The notes beneath the pieces were generated by a model, which was given only the letters and a program-made list of their open reading frames with translations, was not told where the DNA came from and searched no databases. Below, piece after piece: positions 23,121 through 43,826 of a DNA stretch of 64,000 bases (position 1 is the first letter of the stretch; the number at the start of each line of letters is the position of its first letter). The DNA is taken from positions 124,001 through 188,000 of the forward strand of contig NZ_CP082249.1 of assembly GCF_019879105.1 (NCBI RefSeq), read 5' to 3'. Origin of the DNA: Natrinema sp. SYSU A 869 (GTDB lineage: Archaea; Halobacteriota; Halobacteria; Halobacteriales; Natrialbaceae). The position numbers and the translations under genes are program-made.

Positions 23121-23519
23121 ATTTGCTCAGTATAGGCGAGCGACGTCTCACTTCGGACTGATTAGCCGGCGTGTGCGGCGCGCGCTGGCGGCTGGCCGAA
23201 CGCCAGTGAGGGCGGCCGATGATACTATGCGAGGTCCTCGCGAGCGTGTGAGCGAAGTCGTTTGAGACGGCAAAGCCGCCTCGTGAGCGAAAAATCGAAG
23301 ATTTTTCAGAGCTTGTCAGAGCGTGCTCTGACAGTGGATGAGCGAATAGCGAGGGACCCGCGGTCCCTCGGACCATTCGCGCGGTAACGCCGGGCGAAGA
23401 CGCCGGAGGCGTGAGCGTTAGCAGTAGTTGGTAATACGGTTTCTTTATTTAAAGTTGGTCATGAAACTCGCGGTAAGTTCAGGAAGTAGATCTATCACCG
23501 AGCTCGGAGTTTCGTAGCG
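23121..23519. repeat. Cluster of short inverted repeats between rnhA and the acetyltransferase gene
   Basis: At least six hairpins are packed in 23185-23412: arms of six bases at 23229-23241, aaaaatc/gattttt with loop gaa at 23290-23306, a perfect 9-bp stem at 23314-23333, and a perfect 9-bp stem at 23350-23370 nested inside gcgaat/attcgc. The word tgagcgaa recurs between stems. No open reading frame has coding character here. Confidence 0.75.
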
Positions 23520-24083: not shown

Positions 24084-24489
24084 GGCTGCCACCGGGCACT
24101 CCCATCCCAATAGGTGTTTCTGATGACACCTCGTATCGTTCAGTTCGCATCTGTAGTTACCAAATCGTCCGATTCGGTTTCAGAATACTTTCTGAATAAA
24201 GAAATCGTGTTACTATCTACTGTTAGCGCGGAACCGGAGTTCCGCGAGCAGTCGAACGGGTGCGAAGCACCCGTGAGACGACGGTGAAACCGTCCCACAG
24301 CGCCCGTGCGGAGAAATCGGCTGGGGAGGGCGTGGCGATTCCCTGTTCCCATGGTGGAAGGACACTTCTTCTCACCCCCAGAATCCACTGCTCCATTCAC
24401 ACTCTCACCCGATCAGCAGAAAACTCGAGAGGGCACACCACAGAAGCGGATCGGCAAGCGGAAAACCGGTCGAGTACATACGTTCTCCT
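24084..24489. repeat. Second hairpin cluster, upstream of the acetyltransferase gene
   Basis: Three perfect hairpins follow each other: cgcggaac/gttccgcg at 24227-24246 (loop cgga), acgggtgc/gcacccgt at 24255-24273 (loop gaa) and gacggt/accgtc at 24280-24294 (loop gaa). The rest of the gap (24084-24220) is AT-richer than its surroundings and should hold the acetyltransferase promoter. 24300-24489 leads to the next gene and shows nothing recognisable. Confidence 0.75.
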
Positions 24490-40824: not shown

Positions 40825-43686
40825 TCACTCCTCGAGCAACCGCTTCAGTCGATCGAGCTCCGTTAGCGCCTCGACGGGCGTGAGGTGGGCAAGATCGAGC
40901 GCGCGGAGTTCGGCGGCGACATCTGCTGGTACGTCACCGACGTCGGAGTCGAGCTCCGACGAGGATCGCGAACCTTCCTCGGAACGCTTTGCGTTCCGAT
41001 GTGGATCGCGATCGCTTCGCTCGCGCTCACCTGCGGTTTGCTCACCGCCGTCCGCAGTCGCCGTCGCGGGTGGCTCGCCGTCGGGATCGGAAGCCGCCCC
41101 ATCGCTCGAGTCGCTGTCGAACGCTACATCGGTCTCTCCCCCTCCCTCGATCCCCTCGTCGGCCGCGTCCGCGACCAGCTCCCGCGACCGCTCGACCACC
41201 GGCTCGGGAACGCCGGCCGCGGTCGCGACCTCGACGCCGTAGGAGCCTGTCGCCGCGCCGGCGGCGATCTCGTGGTAGAAGACCACGTCGCCGTCTTCCT
41301 GATCGACTTCAAAGTGGAGCGTGAACGCGGCCGCGAGGACGTCGGCCAGTTCGGTCAGCGGGTGGTGATGCGTCGCGAAGAGCGTTGTCGCTCCGACCCG
41401 ATCGTGGAGGTGTTCGGTGATCGCCTGTGCGATGGCCATTCCGTCGGCCGTTGAGGTGCCTCGGCCCACTTCGTCGAGCAGGACGAGCGAGTTCTCGTCG
41501 GCCTCCCGAAGGATCGTCGCGAGTTCGTCCATCTCGACCATGAACGTCGATCGACCGCCAGCGATGTCGTCGCTGGCCCCGACGCGGGTAAAGATTCGAT
41601 CGACGGGCGTGATCCGGGCAGCGCTTGCAGGAACGAAACTCCCGACCTGCGCAAGCAGGACGATCTGGGCTACCTGTCGCATGTAGGTCGACTTACCGGA
41701 CATGTTCGGTCCCGTAATCACCGCTAGCCGGCGATCGCTCGCGAAGCGGGCATCGTTCGGGACGAACGACTCTTGGGTGCGCTCGACGACCGGGTGACGA
41801 CCGCCCTCGATCTCGAGGGTCTGACTCCCGTCGCGCTCGAGGATCTCGGGCCGGCAGTAGTCGTACTGGGCGGCGGCTGTCGCCAGCGAGACGAGTGCGT
41901 CGAGCGTGGCGAGCGCCTCGGCGAGTCCCTGCACGCGCTCGACCTCGTCGGCGATCTCGCGGCGAACGTCACAGAAGAGTTCGTACTCACGCTCGTCGGC
42001 GCGCTCTTCTGCGCCGACGATCTCGTCCTCGCGTTCCTTGAGTTCTGGCGTGACGAACCGTTCCGAGTTTTTGAGGGTCTGTCGGCGCTGATAGTCCTCG
42101 GGCACCGACTCGAGGTTCGGATTCGTCACCTCGATATAGTAGCCGTGGACTGAGTTGTAGCCGACCTTTAGCGAGGTAATCCCAGTCCGCTCGCGCTCTC
42201 GTTCCTCGAGGTCGTCGATCCACTGCTTCCCGTCGCGGGCGGTCCCACGCAGAGTATCGAGGTCTTCGTCGTAGTCCTCGGCGATGATCCCGCCCTCGGT
42301 GATCTCGATCGGCGGATCCGACACGATCGCGTCGTCGATCAACTCGCGGACATCCGCCAGCGGATCGAGATCGGCGTGCAGCCGCTCGAGCCGGTCGCAG
42401 TCGGCGTCGGCGAGCCCCTCGCGGATGTCGGGCACCACGGCGAGGGTGTCCCGCAGCGACCGCAGATCCCGCGCGTTCGCTCGCTCGCGGGAGATCCGCC
42501 CGATCAGTCGCTCGAGGTCATAGACATCCCGCAGGTGCTCGTGCAGTCGTTCGCGCGTCCGGACCGCGCTCGTGAGTTCCTCGACGGCGTCCAGTCGCGC
42601 CTCGATGCGATCGGGCTCGAGCAGCGGCCGTCGGAGCCAGTCGCGAAGTTTCCGCCCGCCGAGCGCGCTGGCGGTCTCATCGAGAACGCCGACGAGCGTC
42701 GCGTCGTCCCGCCCGTTGATGGCGCGGGGTTCGAACAGCTCGAGACTCCGCAGGGCGACGGCGTCTAACAGCAGGTACTCGCGAGGATCGTACCGCGTGA
42801 GGTGGGTGAGATACTCGAGGTGAGCGTCCTCGTCCGGACTCCCGGTCGCGTCTGCATCGTCGTCGCTCGCTTCGGTGCAGTCGTCTTCGTCGCCGCATTC
42901 GCCCTCGTGTTCGCCGCCGCGGACGTACTCCGCGTAGGAAAGGAGCGCGCCGCAGGCCCGAATCTCGGCGTCGCTCGCCAGCAGGGCGTCGGGATTTCGG
43001 AAGTACGCCGAGAGTTTCTCGCCCGCTCGCTCGCGGTCGAACGCGTCCTCGTCGTACGGCGTGACCATGCAGTTCGCCGGAACGAGATCAGCGGGTGCGT
43101 CCGGACCAATGACGGCCTCCGCGGGCGCGAACCGACTCACCTCGTCAGCGATGGACTCCCTCGAGGTTGAACTCGTCGCGAGGAAATCACCCGTGGAGAC
43201 GTCGAGTAGGGCCAGTGCAAGCGCATCGTCCTCGCCGGGAGATGCATCGTCGCGAGCGACTGCCGCGACGAAGTTGTTGTCGTCGCTCGCGAGCAGTTCG
43301 TCCTCGGTGAGCGTCCCAGGCGTGATCACGCGCGTGACCGCCCGTTCGACGACCCCCGAGGTCTCGCCGGGCTCCTCGACCTGATCGGCAACCGCGACCC
43401 GATACCCCGCTTCGAGCAACTCTTCGATGTATGACTCGACGTTGTCGATCGGGATGCCGGCCATCGGATACTCGCCGGTGCTGTCCTCGCGGCTGGTCAG
43501 CGCGATCTCGAGCAGCCGCGCAGTGCGCTCGGCCGCGCCACAGAACGTCTCGTAGAAGTCCCCTACCTGAAAGAGAACGATCGCATCGTCGTAGCGCGCA
43601 CAGAGATCGTGATACTGCGCCATCATGGGCGTCAGCTCATCGCGCTTCTCGGCCATCGCCTCCGGAGGGCCAAGCGCCGGGTCCAT
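40825..43686 (-). CDS. mutS: MutS DNA mismatch repair protein
   Basis: The 953-residue protein has the mismatch-binding domain (VGDFYETF, the conserved Phe-x-Glu in the 'GDFYE' motif), connector, clamp and ATPase. Walker A is [18 protein letters not shown] and [19 protein letters not shown] follows. It starts [22 protein letters not shown]. Two low-complexity acidic linkers are visible: one at about residues 270-300 with paired cysteines, and one at about 855-915 before the C-terminal HhH-like part ([18 protein letters not shown]). The second contains inverted repeats described separately. Confidence 0.96.
40942..41057. repeat. Hairpin-rich segment within mutS
   Basis: gtcggag-tcgag-ctccgac (40942-40960), cggaacgc-ttt-gcgttccg (40980-40998), a gcgatcgc/cgctcgc block near 41005-41030 and ctgcgg...ccgcag (41031-41057) lie in tandem inside the coding frame. 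They encode the polar linker [25 protein letters not shown]. Confidence 0.7.
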
Positions 43687-43826
43687 ACCCGAATTCGGCC
43701 GCCCGACGCTCAAATACCTTGCTGGATCCGTCCCACCGGTGACTCTAGCTCCACCTATCGGGTTCACTGACTGTCACGAAACGGGAAAAACGTATTACGG
43801 TCGACCACACATAGTTGGTGACTGGT

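Follow-up and report, generated by a model that had tools for sequence, protein, structure and literature searches.

The linker ahead of the C-terminal region of MutS in Natrinema sp. SYSU A 869 very probably represents one copy of a mobile, non-autonomous DNA element whose unit, 51 nt with two hairpins, usually inserts before GG; this is judged from comparisons of sequences between genes and genomes. Our best reading is that the family spans nearly the whole order and works like the RPEs, the in-frame palindromic elements of Rickettsia, with an anatomy of its own. The evidence comes from empty sites in relatives, from near-identical copies in unrelated genes and from covariation in the stems. 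Coordinates refer to the window, i.e., the whole 64,000-nt stretch of DNA that was analysed (Table 1).

A palindromic insertion in mutS

The mutS linker lies directly ahead of the conserved MutS C-terminal region and is encoded by consecutive inverted repeats. Of 200 dinucleotide shuffles of the 141-nt mutS stretch, a single one folds at least as well as the stretch itself when taken as RNA (z -2.73). A long-form covariance model was built from the alignment of 12 long copies, which had been collected by BLAST and hence with no reward for pairing; on the window, it matches 40937-41046 with 126 bits (E 6e-24). The hairpins are present at the place inside mutS where the preliminary description had put them, two of them perfect and accompanied by a third helix. 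The location it gave for the element is right as well, but its exact ends (40942-41057) have to be replaced by 40939-41046.

To compare the host gene among relatives, we recovered 28 mutS orthologs from 29 Natrinema genomes. The linker is missing in 22 of these, which read ATADGG-DVPADV or similar, and since most relatives do without it, the linker is an insertion. The extra codons at this site number 36 in the window genome, 17 in G027 and 18 in G013, and the inserts of the latter two correspond to the two outer parts of the window-genome element. Three further orthologs (G003, G005 and G006) have 17 extra codons at the same place, free of hairpins. The linkers of G003 and G005 share 35 and 34 of 53 positions with the element consensus, values reached by none of 2,000 shuffles, and are recognisable as decayed copies (51-nt remnants); that of G006 shares 27 of 53, with 43 of 2,000 shuffles as high, and the case for a decayed copy is weak. 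The expectation under the null of the preliminary description, namely the same linker in other codons and without hairpins, does not describe these orthologs, given that most have no linker and that two of the three hairpin-free ones are decayed copies.

Table 1. Features of the mutS element, its host gene and related loci (positions in the window; loci of loop inversions lie in the genomes or genes named).
Feature	Position or locus	Strand	Evidence or detail
mutS ORF (host gene)	40825..43767	-	open frame of 980 aa; Pfam MutS domains I-V
Inserted palindromic element, long form, 108 nt = 36 codons	40939..41046	-	without it in 22/28 orthologs; covariance match
Core unit, left part, GGTGAGCAAACC + 3 loop bases	41032..41046	-	long-copy and short-form alignments
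57-nt middle module in the loop of hairpin 1	40975..41031	-	missing from short form, as in mutS of G027 and G013 and most family copies
Core unit, right part, GGTTCGC-GATCCTC-hairpin 2-GTC	40939..40974	-	long and short alignments; short-form model 45 bits
Helix 1 (core hairpin 1, opened here by the middle module)	40968..41041	-	41035-41041 pairs with 40968-40974; short-form covariation
Middle-module hairpin, TCGGAACGC-AAA-GCGTTCCGA (plus-strand letters, TCGGAACGC-TTT-GCGTTCCGA)	40979..40999	-	perfect 9-bp stem; two-sided changes in 3/9 pairs, 12 copies
Hairpin 2, GTCGGAG-CTCGA-CTCCGAC	40942..40960	-	perfect 7-bp stem; covariation in 65 copies
GACGGC, left flank and preferred target (Asp-Gly ahead of the insertion)	41047..41052	-	in empty MutS orthologs
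Target GG after the insertion	40937..40938	-	empty-site comparisons of mutS, cbiL and ychF fragment
Intergenic hairpin cluster, left outside the family	23286..23337	+	long-form E 0.22; short-form E 0.004
Loop inversion, SRAP	L300/L307, two Natrinema		CCCCG/CGGGG
Loop inversion, cytochrome b-like	L294/L296		CTTCG/CGAAG
Loop inversion, GlpA	L129/L130		CGAGA/TCTCG

Short, long and tandem forms of the unit

The core unit comprises 51 nt in two hairpins, with the consensus GGTGAGCGAACC-nnn-GGTTCGC-GATCCTC-GTCGGAG-nnnnn-CTCCGAC-GNN, and the 108-nt form is this core with 57 nt added within the loop of the first hairpin. A covariance search of 125 Natrialbaceae genomes returned mostly copies of the short form, which spans 53 columns (the 51-nt unit plus the target GG); exactly this length is found in 70 of 92 copies, and the remaining matches measure 56, 59, 71, 104 (a tandem pair), 107, 110 and 120. 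Except for the 120 match, which overruns the end of the element, all lengths equal 2 modulo 3 with the target GG included, so that the insertions come in multiples of three. The unpaired parts GGTGA, GATCCTC and GNNGG are kept across genera, as is the 51-nt length. The termini GGTGAGCG and CTCCGACG are non-complementary, and the aligned termini (GGTGAGCG... and ...CTCCGACGNN) form no terminal inverted repeats. The encoded peptide is hydrophilic and probably unstructured.

At several sites (mutS, M20 peptidase, AmtB and mesaconyl-CoA hydratase), the long form is present where relatives carry the short form. For mutS, the sequences make both directions possible, from short to long by nested insertion or from long to short by deletion. 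Nested (51+57 nt) as well as tandem arrangements occur. An AmtB-GlnB fusion (L265, in G269) has two copies within a single interdomain linker, and a short-chain fatty acid transporter (L287) contains a tandem duplication of 51 nt (DGGERTAGSRDSSEPRSDGGERTAGSRDSSEPRSDGG).

Copies in unrelated genes, reading frame and target site

In the window genome, a gene for a CbiL-like methyltransferase has a copy that is 89-90% identical to the mutS element over 106-112 nt, and an M20 peptidase gene has one that matches the mutS or the CbiL copy at 82-85% identity. CbiL orthologs without the insert exist (GEPVTDGG-RLIEIEHAEG), and all but four of the M20 peptidase orthologs in the genus are empty, three of the four having the 51-nt form and the window genome the 108-nt form. 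Other genomes carry the element in MoaA, AglB, AmtB, mesaconyl-CoA hydratase, GlpA and SdhA, in the same frame as in mutS. The idea of a palindromic element inserted in frame, put forward in the preliminary description, is borne out by these relatives without the linker for mutS, M20 and CbiL and by the same DNA, in the same frame, in unrelated genes. A copy upstream of cinA (L137) is probably non-coding.

To place the copies in open reading frames, we used a codon-usage score for which four 400-kb blocks had served as training data. The 92 Natrialbaceae copies cluster into 33 unrelated host families. Hosts confirmed by Pfam include AmtB/PII, MutS, argininosuccinate lyase, a class I W/Y tRNA synthetase, an E1 dehydrogenase, mesaconyl-CoA hydratase, SRAP, iPGM, proline dehydrogenase, SdhA, MoaA, AglB and a TnpB-like protein. 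Since many host sites recur in several genera, some of the 92 copies may go back to inheritance, which could bring the count of independent insertions down to about 33. All 92 scored copies lie within the open frames of host genes, with none clearly intergenic: 88 are in sense frame 0 and four, from two families, in antisense frame 0, where they encode a different peptide (PPSERSSDEDRD). Five of the six frames of the consensus are stop-free. In the TnpB-like protein (Cas12f1-like TNB domain; L298 and L302), the unit sits near the C-terminus.

Among the best twelve loci examined outside Natrialbaceae, nine score well overall and are intragenic in sense frame 0, supported as coding on one side or both; in a tenth (L394), which has the same frame, this support is confined to the downstream side. 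The last two (L395, G314:C2:867749; L398, G192:C1:1159859) come from two genera that have, upstream of an intact ychF, a duplicate of its 5' end. The duplicated fragment contains the 51-nt unit in antisense within the P-loop codons, as a clean insertion (AAGCC^CTCTG) in one genus and at the same site in the other. Insertion is therefore possible in other strands or frames, and the frame rule in genes reflects selection at least in part; the target sequence may be a second contributor. A second two-hairpin insertion of about 54 nt, with other stems, is also present in the fragment.

Empty sites show clean insertions of 51 or 108 nt, often at GACGGC^GG. Directly 5' of the element, GA(C/T)GGN is found in 63 of 92 copies, and empty MutS and CbiL orthologs have Asp-Gly-Gly; the M20 site is without this motif, demonstrating that it is not required. 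As regards a target-site duplication, GG alone can be assigned at several empty sites, and none at M20. The only target sequence that the sites have in common is GG, which is not universal.

Stem covariation and loop inversion

The stems change on both sides far more often than expected from shuffles. The 12 long copies have 18 cells with two-sided changes, compared to 4.6 in shuffles. For 65 short copies, which are of the same length and hence get no help from gap placement, there are 101 two-sided changes compared to 25.3 +- 4.2 in shuffles, while slid structures with shifted partners have at most 21; the paired fraction of 98.4% is inflated, since these copies were found with models that reward pairing. 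Helix 1 of the short form has both-sided changes in six of its seven pairs. Between copies that share a host site, 81 two-sided paired changes stand against 27 one-sided changes that break pairing.

In three or four pairs of orthologous copies, a single hairpin loop is cleanly inverted, with stem and flanks unchanged. The SRAP, cytochrome b-like and GlpA loci are 89-94% identical (Table 1), and the E1 locus (85% identical) probably has a loop inversion as well. Such inversions are the signature expected from template switching between hairpin arms, a mechanism that we infer from them. Switching from arm to arm would account for stems that drift and yet stay perfect.

Distribution and probable mobility

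Within the order, the short-form model at E<=1e-6 detects the element in at least 215 of 392 genomes and in at least 63 of 95 genera; the 215 is a lower bound, as few candidates were scored per genome. A scan of named genomes with a strict long-form peptide pattern returned three loci only, the DNA-level models being far more sensitive. On plasmids of Halomarina, Haloterrigena turkmenica, Halorussus and partly Halomicrococcus, the element lies under annotated protein genes. Phage records and PHROGs gave no match to it, and the Rfam 15 covariance models none up to E 1. The Y1 (IS200/IS605) transposase was considered as a partner and rejected: PF01797 is present in 148 of the 215 carriers and has no match in 67, without association with the element (p 0.24). 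No autonomous partner was found, and mobility is read from the comparison of sequences, with no transposition observed.

We propose that copies are tolerated because 51 nt keeps the frame, because this frame is stop-free and because the insertions often fall in linkers or at chain ends; those in other frames or in harmful places would be lost. The hairpins could form while the DNA is single-stranded; template switching from one arm to the other would then flip loops and make stems perfect again, with the consequence that stems diversify and pairing is kept. More speculatively, it is conceivable, if rather doubtful, that we are dealing with a nearly order-wide mobile class that inserts before GG in units of exactly 51 nt, with a preference for Asp-Gly codons (GACGGC^GG), through a non-Y1 activity that recognises hairpins, and whose arms, rewritten in place by template switching, continually yield new palindromes inside working proteins.

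Alternative explanations

The nearly constant frame and strand in functional genes, and the placement in interdomain linkers such as that of AmtB-GlnB and the one ahead of the MutS C-terminus, would also suit a modular linker peptide that is spread by recombination and kept as a useful, flexible and salt-adapted linker, with the palindromes being secondary. We regard this as unlikely, because the two-sided stem compensations alter the peptide (SSSE/SSSD), because antisense copies give another peptide and because the duplicated ychF fragment has an antisense copy. It is still harder to see the unit as an intron-like element whose removal from mRNA or protein would make the insertion silent, and we hold this to be extremely improbable. 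Insertions close to conserved motifs (CopA before MVGDGVND, MoaA and SRAP) do look risky if translated; however, the lengths are all multiples of three, the used frame is stop-free and one frame is dominant, showing that selection sees coding sequence. Nor does the sole copy that splits a P-loop (L395 and L398) allow an intron-like reading, as it lies in the duplicated 5' fragment beside an intact ychF.

Two further explanations do without mobile DNA. The null of the preliminary description, in which the palindromes are a by-product of codon use in a low-complexity linker, could appeal to the GC-richness of haloarchaeal linkers and to chance, which gives stems of at least 8 bp in 1-3% of comparable windows, but in view of the empty orthologs, the near-identical copies in unrelated genes and the covariation, its probability is close to nil. 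The same follows from a survey of in-frame insertions of 10-45 residues in four Natrinema genomes (400 kb each), in which 13 of 57 insertions have a perfect stem of at least 8 bp, compared to 2.5% of random windows and about 1% of codon-order shuffles. Local fold-back template switching in GC-rich linkers is very unlikely to have made the palindromes, even though loops invert in place and other in-frame insertions of 15-19 residues, with wholly different stems, occur between Natrinema genomes: local events cannot yield GGTGA, GATCCTC, GNNGG and a 51-nt length that are conserved across genera. For the mutS family, the conserved spacers already refute local fold-back; the insertions with variable stems may still have arisen in this way. 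The insertion of a mobile unit thus remains our preferred explanation of the mutS linker.

All 13 stem-bearing insertions of the survey are 15-19 residues long, a few of them being the mutS element itself or one insertion counted in two genomes, and many consist of two tandem hairpins with stems unlike those of the mutS family. In the window genome, in-frame insertions of 15-18 residues, mostly two tandem hairpins, are located at G000 C3:8789-8836, 86420-86467, 87914-87967, 95159-95209 and 298842-298895, in genes that, judged by their sequences alone, resemble DNA polymerase IV, an FAD-linked oxidase (with two of the insertions), TmcA and Top6B. These data point to a larger set of ~50-nt two-hairpin insertions, within which the mutS family is the best conserved one that we saw.

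Relation to known elements

RPEs (Ogata et al. 2000) are described in the reviews PMC2229807 and PMC10969869 as short palindromic DNA present in many copies and in frame in unrelated protein genes. According to the same accounts, they are 105-146 bp long, form one long stem-loop with terminal inverted repeats and have an unknown mobiliser. The haloarchaeal element is likewise found in frame in unrelated genes (33 host families, one dominant frame), and the analogy drawn in the preliminary description holds at the level of how the element works. By contrast, its core measures 51 nt, with only the 108-nt form within the RPE range, and the unit has two tandem hairpins and non-complementary ends in place of a single long stem-loop with terminal inverted repeats. 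The one dominant frame, the preferred GACGGC^GG and the archaeal host also set it apart from RPEs as these reviews present them. The palindromic repeats with coding potential of Methanocaldococcus jannaschii (Suyama et al. 2005, as cited in PMC2229807) are also archaeal and fused into protein genes and, going by that citation, come from another class of archaea.

The GTAG/CGTC-tagged REPs, REPINs and RAYTs (PMC3733652, PMC3116915) involve short stem-loops that are often paired and mainly intergenic; some REPs are intragenic, many of these in genes for DNA synthesis or repair, and GTAG-REPs accompany a Y1 transposase. The haloarchaeal copies differ in being almost all intragenic and in having no association with Y1 (HUH). 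With prokaryotic MITEs (PMC10969869), the element shares that it is small, non-autonomous and dispersed, but it has neither terminal inverted repeats nor a clear target duplication. Our search of the freely accessible literature found no published description of the element or its peptide for haloarchaea. As far as we found, the family is apparently undescribed, with the Rickettsia RPEs, REPs in bacterial genes and the M. jannaschii repeats as precedents.

In-frame palindromic elements are thus not confined to Rickettsia, being present in at least half of the sampled haloarchaeal genomes, within proteins that serve DNA repair, translation or central metabolism. Since several haloarchaea are culturable and genetically tractable, the questions raised by RPEs (what moves them, what the peptide does and why the stems are perfect) become testable. 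For annotation, such inserts of 17 or 36 residues in haloarchaeal proteins should be taken as element copies, not domains.

Intergenic hairpins

The preliminary description had related the mutS element to intergenic hairpin clusters in the window (23264-23395 and 24200-24320), each of which holds several perfect hairpins with variable stems. This kinship is not supported, being significant with neither of two covariance models. The long-form model gives E 0.22 at 23.3 kb and E 2.0 at 24.2 kb, on par with dozens of chance matches. The short-form model ranks 23286-23337 below another stretch of the window, and for the 24.2 kb cluster it finds nothing at E<=1. Intergenic DNA is strongly enriched in hairpins, with 11-22 compared to 0-2 in shuffles for four 400-kb blocks; a general excess in coding DNA was discarded, as 30-38 per block, compared to 17-35 in codon shuffles, is roughly chance.

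Weak non-coding relatives of the coding unit do exist in the window genome, so that a distant kinship of the mutS element with the clusters in the window is possible. These are four intergenic, weaker matches of the short-form model (L379, L384, L386 and L387, at G000 C3:3382140, 1288412, 1428942 and 1549500), which are repeats that consist of ACTGAGCGAATC-nnn-GATTCGCGAGGTC and then another hairpin, in the layout of the coding unit, and two of these copies are nearly identical.
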